Below the pieces are notes generated by a model that searched no databases, was not told the origin of the DNA, and was given only the letters and a program-made list of their open reading frames with translations. From positions 1 through 64,000 of the forward strand of contig NZ_JACJGB010000006.1 in the NCBI RefSeq assembly GCF_014164775.1: a stretch of DNA of 64,000 nt, in the 5' to 3' direction. Within the stretch, counting starts at the first letter, position 1, and each line of letters begins with the position of its first letter. Shown here in pieces: positions 45,164 to 50,939 of the stretch. The DNA comes from Tessaracoccus sp. MC1679 (GTDB lineage: Bacteria; Actinomycetota; Actinomycetes; Propionibacteriales; Propionibacteriaceae). The translations under genes and the position numbers were made by a program.

Positions 45164-47839
45164 TCAGTGGGCCGCCGACTGCCACGAATCGCCCACCCCA
45201 ACGGAGACTTCCAGCGGAACCGCAAGGCTGAACGCACCCGTCATCTCCGCCTGGACCAGGTCAGTCAACCGCTCGCGTTCGCCTGGGGCCACCTCGAACA
45301 CGAGCTCGTCGTGGACCTGGAGGAGCATGCGGCTGGCCAGTCCCTCCGCCTCGATGGCCCGCGCCACGTTGATCATCGCCACCTTGATCACGTCAGCCGC
45401 GGACCCCTGGATGGGTGAGTTGAGCGCGGCCCGTTCCGCCATCTCCCGGCGCTGCCGGTTGGTGGTGGTGAGGTCCGGCAGGTATCGGCGTCGGCCGAGC
45501 ATCGTCTCGGTGAAGCCCCGCTTGCGGGCCTCCTCCACGACGGCGGCCAGGTACTCGCGCACGCCCCCGACCCGCGTGAAGTAGTCCTCCATCAGGGTCT
45601 TGGCCTCGCCCACCGAGATCTTGAGCTGGTTGGACAGGCCGAAGGCACTCAGCCCGTAGGCCAACCCGTAGTTCATGGCCTTGATCTTGGCGCGCATCTC
45701 CCCGGTGACGTCCTGCGGCTCCACGCGGAACACCAGCGAGGCCATCTCGTTGTGGAAGTCGCGACCGGAGGTGAACGCCTCGATCAGGCCCTCGTCGCCG
45801 CTGGCGTGGGCCATCAGCCGCATCTCGATCTGCGAGTAGTCCGCCGACATCAGCGACTCGAACCCCGCCCCCGGCACGAACGCGGAACGGATCTGGCGCC
45901 CCATGGAGGTGCGGATGGGGATGTTCTGCAGGTTGGGATCCGTCGAGGACAGCCGGCCGGTGGCCGCGATGGTCTGCACGTAGGTGGTGTGGATGCGGCC
46001 GTCGTCGCCGATGGCGGCCAGCAGCCCGTCGACGGTCTGGCGCAGCCGGATCTGGTCGCGGTGGGCCAACAGGTGACCCAGGAAGGGATGCTCGGTCTTG
46101 ACGAACAGCGACTCCAGGGCATCGGCGTCGGTGGTGTAGCCGGACTTCGTCTTGCGGGTCTTGGGCATGCCCAGCTCGTCGAACAGCACGGACTGCAGCT
46201 GCTTGGGGGAGCCGAGGTTCACCTCGTGCCCCAGCACGTCGAAGGCCGCCTGCTGAGCGGCCGCGACGGCGCCGTCGAACTCATCGCGGAGGGCCTGCAG
46301 CCGGGCGATGTTCACGGCCACACCCACCCGCTCCATCGTCGCCAGGGTCCGTTGGAGCGGAAGCTCGACGTCGGCCATCAGGGCCGCCGCGTTGCGCTCC
46401 ATCAGCTGGCCTTCCAGCGCCTCGGCCAGGTCGAAGACGGCCCGAGCAAGCAGGAGCGCCCGCTCCATGGACCCGTCGTCGGGCTCGCCGAAGTCCAGCG
46501 TCGCCTGCGCGTCGTCCGGGGCCATGGGCTCTGCGGAGAGGTCGCGCTGCAGGTAGCGCACAACCAGGTCCCCCAAGTCGTAGGTCCGCTGGTCCGGGCG
46601 CAGCAGGTAGGCCGCCAGGAGGGTGTCCTGCGCGACGCCGACCAGATCCCATCCGCGGGCCCAGCACGCCAGGGTGGGTCCCTTGGCTTCGTGCACCAGC
46701 TTCCCGCGCGACGGGTCCGCCAGCCAGGCGGCAAGCGCGGCGTCGTCATCGGGGGTGAGGTCTGCCGTGTCCACATAGGCTCCGGCACCGTCGGCGGCTG
46801 CCAGCGCCAGCGCCGTGACGTCCCCGGTGCCGCCGCCCCAGCGACCCACCAGGTGCAGCGCGGTGCGCTCCGTGGCGTGGGCGTCGAGCCAGGCAGCGAC
46901 CTCACCCTCCGCCAGACGGTCCCCCTGCACAGCGAAGCTCTCGGTGGCCACGGGCTCGGCGGGCGCCAGGTCCAGGAGCCGCTCGCGCAGCACCCGGAAC
47001 TCGAGCGCGTCGAAGAGCTGGTGCACCCGCTCGCGGTCCCACTCGTGGCGGGCGGTGGCGTCGAGGGTGATGTCGAGGTCGAGGTCGCGGACGAGCGCGT
47101 TGAGTCGGCGGTTGCGCACCACGCCGTCGAGGTGGGCGCGGAACGACTCCCCCGCCTTGCCAGGCACCTGCTCGGCCCGGGCGACGAGGTTGTCCAGGCC
47201 GTCGAACTGGTCCAGCCACTTGGCTGCGGTCTTCGGGCCGACGCCCGGGACGCCTGGGAGGTTGTCGCTGGTCTCGCCGACGAGCGCGGCGAGCTCCGGG
47301 TATCGACTGGGGGCAACCAGGTACTTCTCGGTGACGGTCGCGGGGGTCATCCGGGCGAGGTCGGAGACCCCCTTGCGGGGATAGAGCACGGTGACGTGGT
47401 CGGTGACCAGCTGCATGGCGTCCCGGTCCCCCGAGACGATGAAGACGTCGTAACCTTCCGCCTCAGCCTTCGTCGAGAGCGACGCGATGATGTCGTCGGC
47501 CTCATAGCCCGGCATCTCCAGGTAGGGCACGTTGAGCGCGTCGAGGACGTCCTTGACAAGCGCCACCTGCCCCTTGAACTCCTCGGGTGACTTGGCGCGG
47601 TTGGCCTTGTACTCCGGGTACTGCTCAGTCCGGAACGACTCCCGCGCCACGTCGAACGCCACCACCAGATGCGTGGGCTGCTCGTCGCGCAGCACATTGA
47701 TCAGCATCGAGGTGAAGCCGAACACCGCGTTGGTGTGTTGCCCCGTCGTGGTGGCGAAATTCTCCACGGGCAGCGCAAAGAAAGCGCGGTAGGCCACCGA
47801 ATGGCCATCGATCAACAGCAGCTTGCCCGAGTCAGTCAC
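45164..47839 (-). CDS. polA: DNA polymerase I
   Basis: 891 residues from GTG 47839. The N-terminal 5' nuclease domain (about 1-290) has LLIDGHSVAYRAFFAL, VSGDRDAMQLV and the helix-hairpin-helix GVPGVGPKTA. The middle proofreading domain is present but degenerate: the D-x-E of exonuclease motif I is not found, and motif II reads HEAKGPTL without its aspartate. The C-terminal polymerase domain has motif A SADYSQIEMRLMAHASGD, motif B and motif C LQVHDELVFEV. It should fill gaps and remove primers without 3'-5' proofreading, as in mycobacteria. Confidence 0.96.
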   Translation of the reverse strand: MTDSGKLLLIDGHSVAYRAFFALPVENFATTTGQHTNAVFGFTSMLINVLRDEQPTHLVVAFDVARESFRTEQYPEYKANRAKSPEEFKGQVALVKDVLDALNVPYLEMPGYEADDIIASLSTKAEAEGYDVFIVSGDRDAMQLVTDHVTVLYPRKGVSDLARMTPATVTEKYLVAPSRYPELAALVGETSDNLPGVPGVGPKTAAKWLDQFDGLDNLVARAEQVPGKAGESFRAHLDGVVRNRRLNALVRDLDLDITLDATARHEWDRERVHQLFDALEFRVLRERLLDLAPAEPVATESFAVQGDRLAEGEVAAWLDAHATERTALHLVGRWGGGTGDVTALALAAADGAGAYVDTADLTPDDDAALAAWLADPSRGKLVHEAKGPTLACWARGWDLVGVAQDTLLAAYLLRPDQRTYDLGDLVVRYLQRDLSAEPMAPDDAQATLDFGEPDDGSMERALLLARAVFDLAEALEGQLMERNAAALMADVELPLQRTLATMERVGVAVNIARLQALRDEFDGAVAAAQQAAFDVLGHEVNLGSPKQLQSVLFDELGMPKTRKTKSGYTTDADALESLFVKTEHPFLGHLLAHRDQIRLRQTVDGLLAAIGDDGRIHTTYVQTIAATGRLSSTDPNLQNIPIRTSMGRQIRSAFVPGAGFESLMSADYSQIEMRLMAHASGDEGLIEAFTSGRDFHNEMASLVFRVEPQDVTGEMRAKIKAMNYGLAYGLSAFGLSNQLKISVGEAKTLMEDYFTRVGGVREYLAAVVEEARKRGFTETMLGRRRYLPDLTTTNRQRREMAERAALNSPIQGSAADVIKVAMINVARAIEAEGLASRMLLQVHDELVFEVAPGERERLTDLVQAEMTGAFSLAVPLEVSVGVGDSWQSAAH

Positions 47840-47877
47840 ACCGGCGAGCCTACCGAAGGTGTGGAAGAGTGCGGCCC

Positions 47878-48282
47878 ATGAACAGCGTGCCCCCCTGGCT
47901 GCCCGACATCACCTCGCCCCTCGACGACAAGCTGGGCGTCGAGATCACCGAGCTGACGCCCGAGCGCGTCGTCGGCTCGATGCCCGTGGAGGGCAACCTG
48001 CAGCCGTTCGGGCTCCTGCACGGGGGAGCTTCGGGCGTCCTGGTGGAGACGCTGGCGTCGATGGGGGCGATGGCGCACGGCTATCCGGACCGCGTCGGTG
48101 TAGGGGTGGACCTGAACGTGACGCACGTTCGGGCGGCCAGGACGGGGCGCGTGACGGGGACGGCGACCGCGATCCACCTGGGCCGGTCCATCGCCACGTA
48201 CCGCGTCGACATCGTCGACGACGAGGGTCGGCTCACTGCGACGGGTCGGTTGACGTGCCACATGATCTCGCCGCCCCGGTAG
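47878..48282 (+). CDS. hotdog-fold PaaI-type thioesterase
   Basis: 134 residues from ATG 47878; a GTG three codons earlier is an alternative. The hotdog signature is GLLHGGASGVLVETLAS (catalytic histidine/glycine turn and glutamate/aspartate helix) near residue 50, with GVDLNVTHVRAARTGRVTG after it. Such enzymes hydrolyse aryl- or hydroxynaphthoyl-CoA esters. A menaquinone role (MenI) is possible but not shown by the context. It diverges from polA with 38 bp between starts. Repeat array A begins 51 bp after its stop. Confidence 0.8.
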   Translation: MNSVPPWLPDITSPLDDKLGVEITELTPERVVGSMPVEGNLQPFGLLHGGASGVLVETLASMGAMAHGYPDRVGVGVDLNVTHVRAARTGRVTGTATAIHLGRSIATYRVDIVDDEGRLTATGRLTCHMISPPR

Positions 48283-48332
48283 TTCGGTCGCTCTCGCCCC
48301 ACCGTCGAGCCCGCTCCGAGCCACCCAACTGA

Positions 48333-48537
48333 GCACGACACGCCGCCCGAGTCCGCTCACACCCACACCCCTGGCCAAGCAACGCGCTTCCGACGGCGTT
48401 TCGTGCCCACCCCACCGATGCGCCCGCCCCACCGTCGCGCCCCATGCCGAGGCACCCACCGGAGCACGACACGCCGCCCGAGTCCGCTCCCACCCACACC
48501 CCTGGCCAAACAGAGAGCTTCCGACGGCGTTTCGTGC
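48333..48537. repeat. array A: two copies of a 74-bp inverted-end element
   Basis: The two elements are 48333-48406 and 48464-48537, both exactly 74 bp and 131 bp apart. Each starts GCACGACACGCCG and ends CGGCGTTTCGTGC, a 13-bp inverted repeat with one mismatch. The ends, the CCGAGT block near position 15-20 and the TTCCGACGGCGT block near position 56-67 are shared with the four elements of array B beyond the nuclease gene. The 296 bp between the thioesterase stop (48282) and the nuclease start (48579) hold nothing else I can identify. Confidence 0.9.
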
Positions 48538-48578
48538 GCGACCTGCGGCCTGTCCACAGCCACGCGACGGGGTGGGAA

Positions 48579-49442
48579 ATGGCCTGCGCGCTCCACGAAC
48601 AAGGGCAGGTGAGGATCTACCATTCCCGCGGCGCCGGCGGCGTTGTCACACGCAAGGAACTTCTGGCTGAAGGTATGTCCCGCAGACAGATCGAGGCAGC
48701 AGAGCTCGACGGTTCACTCCTCCGCGTTGACAGGTGCAGGTATGCACGCGCCAACGCTATTCCGGAGGTCGTCGCCGCAGCGCGCGCTGACGCCACCCTG
48801 ACATGCCTTTCTGCCTTGGCCGCACACGGCCTGTGGACCCTTCCGTCGACCGGTCTTCATCTGCGACGGGGTAGCTACGGGATGCGCAAACGCGACCTGC
48901 CCCCTGGCGGTCGGCTGTGTTTCAGTCCTTCAGCGCCGACGGTCAAACCGCTCGACTCGATACCTGCCGCGCTGGGTGCCGCTGTCCGCCACCACAGTGC
49001 CGAGGAAGCTGTCATGGCGATGGACTCGGTCCTGCATCGCCGACTGTTGACAAGGGCTGAGCTGGAGTCCCACTTTGCGGGAGAGGGGCCGCGGGCCAGG
49101 GAACTTCTGGCGCGCGCCGACGCTCGGACCGAGTCTGCACTTGAGTCCATCGCACGGCAGCGTCTCCGTGCTGCCGGCTTTCAACCCCGTGTCCAGGTGC
49201 CGATTCCACGGCTCGGGCGCGTCGACATGATGATCGGGCGGCGCCTGATCATCGAGACCGACGGTCATCAGTTCCACACCGGCGAGGACAGCTTTGAAGA
49301 GGACCGGCGCAGGGATCGTGTGGCCGCAAGTCTTGGGCTGGTATCCGTCCGGCTGACATGGACGCAAGTCCTCAACCAGTGGGACGAAGCGCTCGCAGAC
49401 ATCCGCGCCATTGCGGATCGCACGAGGCGCCGTCGGCCCTGA
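48579..49442 (+). CDS. DUF559/AbiEi-like PD-(D/E)XK nuclease-domain protein
   Basis: 287 residues from ATG 48579; a longer in-frame extension would run through repeat array A and is rejected. The N-terminal winged-helix region (GGVVTRKELLAEGMSRRQIE) resembles the AbiEi antitoxin/transcription-factor type. The C-terminal 90 residues are a DUF559 (Vsr-like) endonuclease fold: E in ALESIARQRLRAAG, D in GRVDMMIG, then E-x-D in IIETDGHQFH, with RRRDRVAASLGL after. Actinobacterial genomes carry many such genes, mostly unstudied. Both flanks hold the 74-bp elements. Catalytic residues look intact. The combination could act in defence or mobility, but that is inference. Confidence 0.78.
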   Translation: MACALHEQGQVRIYHSRGAGGVVTRKELLAEGMSRRQIEAAELDGSLLRVDRCRYARANAIPEVVAAARADATLTCLSALAAHGLWTLPSTGLHLRRGSYGMRKRDLPPGGRLCFSPSAPTVKPLDSIPAALGAAVRHHSAEEAVMAMDSVLHRRLLTRAELESHFAGEGPRARELLARADARTESALESIARQRLRAAGFQPRVQVPIPRLGRVDMMIGRRLIIETDGHQFHTGEDSFEEDRRRDRVAASLGLVSVRLTWTQVLNQWDEALADIRAIADRTRRRRP

Positions 49443-49486
49443 CGGAGCTGTCACAGCGTCAGGGCCAAAGCCACCGAACGGTCCGT

Positions 49487-49946
49487 GCACGAATGTCCGG
49501 CCGAGTGCCCCACCGCCGCCACCGTCGTACCCGAGGAGCGGTTCCGACGGCGTGTCGTGCACAGGGGGGCGGCCCACACCCAGTCCTGTGGAGCGGGACC
49601 CGGGACCTGGGTGCGCACGAATGTCCGGCCGAGTGCCCCGCCGACGCCACCGTCGTACCCGAGGAGCGGTTCCGACGGCGTGTCGTGCACAGTGGGGCGG
49701 CTCACTCCCCGGCGTGTGCAGCGGAGACCCGGGGGATCCGGGTGCGCACGAATGTCCGGCCGAGTGCGCCGTCGGTGCCGTAGTTGCACACGAGGAGGGG
49801 TTCCGACGGCGTGTCGTGCACAGGGGGGCGGCCCACACCCAGTCCTGTGGAGCGGACTCGGGACCTGGGTGCGCACGAATGTCAGGCCGAGCGCCCCGTC
49901 GATGCCGCAGTTGCACACGAGAGGCGGTTCCGACGGTGGGTCGTGC
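49487..49946. repeat. array B: four copies of the 74-bp inverted-end element
   Basis: Elements are at 49487-49560, 49615-49688, 49746-49819 and 49873-49946, each exactly 74 bp, with starts 128, 131 and 127 bp apart. All begin GCACGAATGTC and end TCGTGC; in the first copy the inverted ends extend to GTGCACGA/TCGTGCAC. Centres differ: copies 1-2 share one centre, copies 3-4 another. After the first and third copies, CACAGG...CCTGTG adds a second small hairpin. The stretch 49443-49947 contains no gene. The apparent open frames are repeat artefacts, because the spacings are not multiples of three. Confidence 0.92.
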
Positions 49947-49947
49947 C

Positions 49948-50346
49948 TCAGGGAAGGAACAGGGACTCGTACGGCGCAATGCGGACCAGCCCGTCGGCGC
50001 GCCCGGCCAGCCGCGGCTCCCCACACACCAGGGCATCCGCCGCAAGCCGGGTCACCGCGACATACTCCGCATCCCGCAGCGACTCCCAGCCGTGCTCGAG
50101 CGCCATCTCCCAGGCCAACCGCCGCGACACCCGGTCGTTGAGTACCCGAAGCTTCGCCTCAGCCACCCGATCCAACAGTCCCAGCGCATCCCGCCTGTCC
50201 AACCCGTCGCGGACGCGAGCGAGCACCAGCTCGAGGGCCTGGGCCCGGACAGGGTTGGGCGCGACGAGGCTGTGGTCTGGGTGGACCGGAACCCCGCCGT
50301 CGATGATCGACAGCAGGACGGGGGCGTCGACGACGAATCGAGTCAC
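49948..50346 (-). CDS. PIN-domain protein (VapC-like), solitary
   Basis: 132 residues from GTG 50346. PIN acidic residues in order: D in FVVDAPVLL near residue 7, E in [11 protein letters not shown] in [12 protein letters not shown] near residue 92, and a final acidic position in [15 protein letters not shown] proteins are Mg-dependent ribonucleases, often VapC toxins. No VapB-type antitoxin gene is upstream: pdtaR ends 14 bp before its start on the same strand. The last 74-bp element ends one base before its stop codon. Confidence 0.78.
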
Positions 50347-50360
50347 CGCGACCCCGCGCG

Positions 50361-50939
50361 TTACTTCTTCTTGTGCGAGATGACGCCGTCGGCGACGTCG
50401 CGCATGGACTTGCGCAGGTCCATGGCGGTCTTCTGGATCCAGCGGAACGCCTCGGGCTCTGTGAGTCCGAGGTCCTGCTGCAGGATGCCCTTGGCCTGGT
50501 CGATGACCTTGCGCGACTCGAGGCGCTCCTCGAGCGAGACCAGCTCGTCCTCGATGGCCTTGATCTCCTGGAAACGGCCCAGCGCGATCTCGATGGCGGG
50601 CACCACATCGGAGGCGCCGAACGGCTTGACGACGTAGGCCATGGCGCCGGCCTCGCGCGCGCGCTCGACGAGGTCACGCTGGCTGAAGGCGGTCAGCATC
50701 ACGACGGGGGCGATGCGCTCCTCGGCGATGATCTCCGCGGCGGTGATGCCGTCCATCTTGGGCATCTTGACGTCCATGATCACCAGATCCGGCTCCAGCT
50801 CACGGGCCAGCTTGACGGCCTCTTCGCCGTCGCCGGCTTCGCCGACCACCTCATAGCCCTCCTCGGTCAGGAGTTCCACCAGGTCCAGGCGGATCAGCGC
50901 CTCATCCTCGGCGACGATCACTGTGGGCTTCTTATTCAT
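50361..50939 (-). CDS. pdtaR: ANTAR response regulator, PdtaR-like
   Basis: 192 residues. An N-terminal receiver domain has phospho-acceptor D56 in [10 protein letters not shown], acidic pocket AEDE and KPFGASD. The C-terminal ANTAR RNA-binding domain ([19 protein letters not shown], then [20 protein letters not shown]) follows a coiled linker. PdtaR binds dual-hexaloop RNA terminators when phosphorylated by the PdtaS kinase, which is not in the window. The position beside tRNA-Leu and pyk is conserved in actinobacteria. Confidence 0.92.

Follow-up and report, generated by a model that had tools for sequence, protein, structure and literature searches.

What are the six palindromic elements that surround a DUF559-type nuclease gene in Tessaracoccus sp. 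MC1679, and do they belong to the nuclease? The elements were found on the forward strand of the window, the whole 64-kb stretch (64,000 nucleotides) that was analysed. Elements 1 and 2, at 48333..48406 and 48464..48537, lie upstream of the gene, and elements 3 to 6, at 49487..49560, 49615..49688, 49746..49819 and 49873..49946, lie downstream. Each is exactly 74 bp long and all begin with GCACGA and end with TCGTGC, as the first-pass annotation of the window had reported, and the CCGAG and TTCCGACGG blocks that it had described as common were seen in the aligned elements. The ends of element 1 are GCACGACACGCCG and CGGCGTTTCGTGC; those of element 6 are the most diverged of the six, and this element was absent from the automatic length-free detection and was entered in the consensus set by hand. 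The two upstream elements are 57 bp apart and the gaps between the four downstream ones measure 54, 57 and 53 bp, so that the spacers span 53-57 bp where about 54-57 bp had been claimed. Elements 4, 5 and 6 stand in a tandem array with steps of 127-131 bp. The pattern GCACGA-N62-TCGTGC occurred six times in the window, whereas 49 of 50 dinucleotide shuffles gave no match and the remaining one gave a single match, so the six elements are not products of chance.

The nuclease gene occupies 48609..49442 on the forward strand and encodes 277 amino acid residues, assigned by Pfam, PADLOC and fold to an AbiEi-type winged helix-turn-helix (wHTH) domain followed by a DUF559 (Vsr/EDxHD-like PD-(D/E)XK) nuclease. 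The homologs placed the start at the GTG at 48609, with an alternative in-frame ATG at 48579. A long open reading frame (48444-49442) overlaps element 2, but since homology puts the protein start near 48609, this element is upstream of the gene and ends 71 bp 5' of the inferred start codon. With this start, the described order of two elements before the gene and four after it holds, and element 3 begins 44 bp 3' of the stop codon. The third-position GC content of the nuclease gene is 0.71, against 0.92-0.93 in the adjoining polA and thioesterase genes.

Length, anatomy and conservation of the elements

The genome of the window was searched for GCACGA and TCGTGC separated by 40-68 free bases. 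Matches of many lengths were obtained; among the matches listed, the length was 74 bp wherever the longer end motif was present, and three further 74-bp matches look like chance. With the pattern GCACGANANGCCG-N48-CGGCGTNTCGTGC and up to two mismatches, the same genome gave 26 forward matches and the reversed-pattern control gave 0. The family was present in 8 of the 60 genomes searched, including that of the window, all of the same genus. A scan of 84,980 species, in which the total length was free between 64 and 94 bp, returned 83 stretches; lone matches in unrelated phyla were taken as chance, and Curtobacterium and Saccharothrix had the same half-site in other arrangements. In Curtobacterium sp. 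MCSS17_008 (L050, L055, L060, L066, L074, L086, L101, L110, L121), GGTCGCACGACNCGCCG half-sites were seen, some about 31 bp apart, and eight of the nine classified lay between convergent genes.

The element length was surveyed with the total length free between 60 and 95 bp. In the Propionibacteriaceae MAG24 (JAPUEL), 33 of 34 detections were 74 bp long; the length was 73 bp in 27 of 28 in JAUNKV and in 10 of 12 in JAUNKK (G018, which has 8 elements by the exact pattern), and 84 bp in 13 of 15 in CAMCJC. The window genome showed 74 bp in 25 of 27 detections at loci that had been chosen from 74-bp matches, and by the exact pattern G062 has six elements of 73 bp and two of 74 bp. Lengths were mixed in Arachnia propionica OH887 (G034), with 61, 73, 74, 75, 76 and 82 bp among 10 detections. 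One dominant element length is found in most sampled genomes, and 84 bp exceeds 73-74 bp by about one helical turn.

Outside called genes lay 119 of the 123 placed elements, a count made with a gene caller that failed to call the window's own DUF559 gene, and the gene gaps were convergent, tandem and divergent. The proposal that the elements are substrate repeats of a REP/MITE family is supported in spirit. Arrays of up to seven 73-bp elements were seen in the Propionibacteriaceae MAG S30M_Sa_58 (L104 3782-4512, L087, L114), mostly with steps of 99-100 bp and spacers of 26-27 bp. Another palindromic repeat, of the GGTCTCGAC...GCTCGACCAGCGG kind, was seen at L104, L087 and L264, between 73-bp elements or at an element-free site.

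The consensus, for which both orientations were pooled, is an interrupted dyad with an outer GCACGACACGCCGTC, followed by A18, C28 G29 and C34, all mirrored; the inner dyad is C28 G29 C34 / G41 C46 G47. Covariation was tested on the 26 elements of the window genome. Standard pairs made up 79.5% at the mirror positions, against 80.9% in shuffles, and the covariation score was 0.052, where shuffling gave 0.070 on average. In 18 of the 26 elements position 7/68 was unpaired, and RNAalifold kept nine pairs, none of them with a compensatory change. Half-sites that are read independently of each other on double-stranded DNA would be expected to lack covariation in this way. The private families L188, L194 and L201, which are treated below, have long near-perfect arms, so hairpins may form there.

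Conservation in place was examined at matching intergenic sites of the window genome and MAG24, where 15 element pairs were compared, some of them one copy against two, with the window copies matched by order and the MAG24 copies taken from the 74-bp list. The ends had 17 differences in 390 positions and the centres 211 in 720, and the flanks needed many gaps. Within the inner dyad, C28, C34 and G41 differed in 1, 1 and 2 pairs, whereas G29, C46 and G47, with 4, 3 and 4, were no quieter than many other positions. These comparisons support selection on the length and the ends of the element as the reading of the sequences. The constant length had been attributed to selection for a fold or for spacing; selection on length is retained, and the fold is not, the mirror positions being without covariation in the window genome.

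The nuclease protein and its clade

The window protein matches Pfam DUF559 with 28.8 bits (cut-off 20.6) and AbiEi_4 with 20 bits, under the cut-off of 25 for that family. PADLOC gave AbiEi matches for it, and AbiEi_4 was detected at E <= 0.01 in five of six clade members. In a weak structure model (mean pLDDT 64.8, built from three sequences), the C-terminal domain resembles NGO0050 (target TM 0.72) and the catalytic domain of I-Bth0305I (0.74). Foldseek returned 3hrl and 3r3p at probability 1.00 with E above 0.001, and no match at E <= 0.001. The DUF559 score above the Pfam cut-off and the PD-(D/E)XK fold matches place the protein in this nuclease group. The acidic and histidine residues of the nuclease domain, which we take to be catalytic, are invariant across six clade proteins.

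A homing endonuclease gene interrupts the target site of its enzyme and thereby protects the allele that carries it. The window gene lies between complete elements and interrupts none, and we do not count it as a homing endonuclease gene. The modelled fold of its catalytic domain is nevertheless like that of the EDxHD homing endonuclease I-Bth0305I and of Vsr-DUF559 enzymes. In the available text of PMC3943268, I-Bth0305I is a homing enzyme that dimerises on a target of nearly 60 bp, a long dimeric target comparable to the elements; the difference is that the window-type gene sits between complete copies of its presumed target and that many targets stand alone. The N-terminal domain is similar to that of the AbiEi antitoxins of the type IV AbiE systems (AbiEi_4, PADLOC AbiEi), which, as the accessible part of PMC7319586 states, bind inverted repeats and autoregulate through them; unlike in these antitoxins, the C-terminal part of the window protein is a nuclease. 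MTES_1575-type nucleases are described in the portion of PMC3710099 at hand as Vsr-like restriction endonucleases in conflict proteins. Another DUF559 Vsr-like endonuclease is Caulobacter VsrA, to which a section heading of PMC12907096 ascribes the SOS response seen in a subset of the cells that lack the methyltransferase ScmA; the main text of that paper, as far as available, mentions no palindromic elements.

DUF559 genes are present in 35 of 39 genomes of the genus. In the window genome, one of the five Pfam DUF559 genes is near elements among the matches listed, and most elements are located away from its DUF559 genes; by their positions, DUF559 is not the neighbour of most elements. From this genome alone no link is apparent, but the comparison of flanks across genomes reveals one. 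A single gene flanked on either side by elements no more than about 100 bp away was found in each of G019 (4 of 7 DUF559 genes scanned), G022 (5 of 6 scanned), G034 (5 scanned) and G010 (3 scanned). The bracketed gene of G019 is the counterpart of the window gene, in the same polA-thioesterase setting, and is therefore not independent of it. In a tree of 36 DUF559 rows, which is limited to proteins of 200-450 residues and in which two genes were entered twice, the five flanked genes and L140 of G062 formed one clade with a support of 93/94, below the program's 95 mark.

The elements of G062 were not known beforehand. They were predicted from the clade position of L140, and 73-bp elements were then confirmed. 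Three of these surround the gene in a loose bracket: on one side there are two, the nearer at 217 bp, and on the opposite side there is one at about 1.06 kb. G024 was found later through the clade alignment and has one element on each side of the gene. In all seven genomes found with the clade, the clade gene lies between elements of its own genome. None of the 43 other DUF559 loci (38 distinct genes) had a 73- or 74-bp family element within 1.1 kb, where an 86-bp match in a coding region of L154 was taken as chance, and the nearest family elements were at 1.9 and 2.3 kb. In G018, a metagenome-assembled genome of 220 contigs, elements are present and no clade gene was found at E <= 1e-40. Both elements and clade gene are patchy within the genus. 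In the complete 3.3-Mb genome of G062, seven of the eight exact-pattern elements lie in G062:C1:925386-1006060, within 50 kb of the nuclease gene at 974 kb, a clustering that hints at local spread.

The first-pass annotation had tied the array to the nuclease, and this tie is upheld by the bracketing of one protein clade. The count of copies and of co-occurrence with DUF559 genes that it had proposed gave about 26 copies here and a link of this family to that clade. It had also expected that copies scattered through the genome, or stems without covariation, would leave an ordinary intergenic repeat. Both were observed, yet that conclusion is not warranted, since the comparison of genomes brings out the link to the nuclease.

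Recent copying may be reflected in G034, where four dispersed copies have centres that are 84-89% identical in the pairs listed and mostly unrelated flanks. In the window genome, the centre identity of dispersed copies is at most 0.66 outside L014; with so little shared centre sequence, recent copying is not visible there. MITEs and insertion sequences are marked by terminal inverted repeats, by target-site duplications and by empty sites that are clean. Two G034 loci have counterparts in G010 that lack the element, and at these the junctions were not clean and no target duplication was seen. The G010 locus L269 (C46) shares the right half-element and the right flank with the G034 locus L105, while the left half and flank are unrelated, as if a rearrangement had broken inside the element. 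Among the neighbours within 2.5 kb of the elements, no family recurred beyond ABC proteins, a few matches in two or three genomes, and synteny. At L014 4593-8254 (contig C15 of G000), two 74-bp elements, whose centres are 79% similar, stand on either side of HepT-like and AEP-TOTE/helicase conflict-system genes, and RlaP-like and ParE-like genes come next after this cassette. Defence genes may also be marked or carried as cargo by the elements.

Private dyads at other DUF559 genes

Homologs inside and outside the clade were analysed with a strict bracket test, which required two dyads built from the same 12-letter word, one to the left and one to the right of the gene, and equal in length (+/-2). 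With gene bounds taken from the match and the short loci L191 and L199 left out, the test was passed by 24 of 56 homolog loci and by 0 of 280 shuffles. Control genes, mostly drawn from element-bearing loci, passed in 4 of 350 cases: one was a DUF559 gene, one its neighbour, one a gene between two 74-bp elements, and one is unexplained. The difference corresponds to a Fisher p of about 2e-19, calculated on loci that are related. Pairs from the far flanks passed in 0 of 52 cases and cross-locus pairs in 2 of 300, both within one genus. When the seven clade loci were removed, 22 of 49 passed. The layout seen in the window, with a private sequence at each gene, is repeated at many related nuclease genes of other actinobacteria. 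Of the 32 loci that failed, five belong to the clade and are visibly flanked, by elements with unlike ends; five other DUF559-type loci of the window genome also fail.

The left and right dyads were of exactly equal length in 21 of the 24 passing loci, although a difference of +/-2 was allowed (63/63, 69/69, 73/73, 74/74, 79/79 and 92/92 are examples), and the two copies were often just 54-75% alike. The nearest relative outside the clade, in G007, has 73/73 copies that also start with GCACGA. Two private families were sought genome-wide, and both are dispersed, with solo copies. The CGCAGAAACCGGGCA family, with 73 bp fixed in the pattern, had 21 copies in G177, 28 in G174 and 0 in the other 28 genomes sampled from that genus; the TGCACGACCCGGG family, with 69 bp fixed in the pattern, had 6 copies each in G321 and G645 and was absent from the remaining 57 genomes. 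The G321 gene is flanked by two identical copies in direct orientation. A GGCTCGACCAACC dyad was observed next to the DUF559 gene of L188. In MAG24, a DUF559 gene of another subfamily lies between private 50-bp dyads, GAACTGGTCGCT (L112/L172 5745-6662); a clade gene is present too, and two nuclease-dyad systems may coexist in this genome.

Competing explanations and the comparison with REPINs

The reading that we prefer, with a probability of about 0.6, is that the six elements are members of a family of double-stranded DNA dyads, constant in length and dispersed through the genome, and that their cognate protein is the AbiEi-type winged-helix/DUF559 nuclease that they bracket. For this nuclease-dyad system we infer binding, cleavage and mobility. 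A dimer would read the two outer half-sites and the inner contacts through its wHTH domains, and by reading both half-sites it would need a fixed helical spacing. The Vsr/EDxHD-type domain might cut or nick within or beside the element. Solo elements would be spread and maintained by cut-and-repair or by copying, and the element-gene-element unit would persist as their source.

The elements could instead be sites of a regulon or of chromosome organisation, served by a regulator or an architectural protein that binds DNA, controls its own gene through the brackets and has a host role at the dispersed sites, the nuclease being secondary or lost. Ends that are conserved in place across species fit host-useful sites, as do the 119 of 123 placed elements outside called genes, and AbiEi relatives autoregulate through inverted repeats (PMC7319586, in its accessible part). 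We consider this unlikely, because the elements occur in convergent, tandem and divergent gaps alike, because no neighbour family recurs within 2.5 kb apart from those named above, because the putative catalytic residues are invariant in six clade proteins, and because neither the sites nor the gene occur throughout the genus. It is still less probable that the elements are MITE-like repeats of an unknown transposase between which DUF559 genes have settled as passengers: although the similar dispersed copies in G034, the two elements around the HepT-like/TOTE cassette of L014 and two others that flank a called gene in L017 would suit such repeats, each DUF559 locus has motifs of its own (in cross-locus pairs, 2 of 300 matched), clade membership predicted the G062 elements, and no recurrent transposase was found among the neighbour clusters.

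A structured RNA, whether a type III-like repeat-RNA antitoxin, a riboswitch or a bidirectional terminator, is very improbable. The 13-bp complementary ends, the arrays next to the gene and the long near-perfect arms of some private families speak for it, but in the window genome the mirror positions show no covariation and frequent mispairs, the length is fixed across unpaired centres, and copies occur genome-wide. No Rfam family reached its gathering score in 47800-50400, the single match having 24.4 bits against 50. In type III toxin-antitoxin systems, a tandem repeat RNA lies upstream of a ToxN-like endoribonuclease and is processed by it. Here the elements stand on both sides of the gene and throughout the genome, the protein has a DUF559 domain and no ToxN Pfam match, and covariation is missing. 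The proposed hairpin RNA array is therefore not supported, the Rfam match being far below the gathering score and most elements lying away from DUF559 genes.

For the preferred nuclease-dyad system, the closest comparison is with the REPIN-RAYT systems of Pseudomonas and other bacteria. In the available sections of PMC3116915, the critical features of the REPIN spacer are its length and its capacity to form a hairpin, with compensatory changes being common, and REPIN clusters adjoin RAYT genes, each single-copy cognate enzyme gene having a family of its own next to it. Common to both are dispersed extragenic inverted pairs of fixed length with conserved ends and a less conserved spacer, tandem clusters, and copies beside one cognate enzyme gene. 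The window-genome elements differ from these REPINs in that they show no compensatory changes, and the enzyme combines an AbiEi-type wHTH domain with a PD-(D/E)XK nuclease domain. A Y1_Tnp (PF01797) gene was found in none of the nine element-bearing genomes, while 5 of 14 control genomes were positive. The missing Y1_Tnp gene and, in the window genome, the missing compensatory changes rule out membership among the RAYT systems. By analogy, our best reading is that the system works like REPIN-RAYT, with a dsDNA nuclease that would replace the ssDNA HUH transposase, and is not a member of it.

With somewhat less than even confidence, we extend this to AbiEi-wHTH/DUF559 nucleases across Actinobacteria. 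These could be the engines of a new miniature two-component class, selfish or domesticated, in which each nuclease would recognise its own helically phased dyad, private and constant in length, in double-stranded form, would have it on both sides of its gene, and would spread and maintain tens of solo copies, and which would have evolved independently of REPIN-RAYT. In the literature covered, with subscription journals and preprints outside its scope, no title or abstract opening linked DUF559 with such elements, and the partnership of nuclease and repeat looks like an unrecorded one. In conclusion, a subset of DUF559 nucleases gains candidate DNA targets that can be read from the gene flanks, a class of intergenic repeats is accounted for, and it is suggested that the REPIN-RAYT life style arose a second time, from an unrelated origin.
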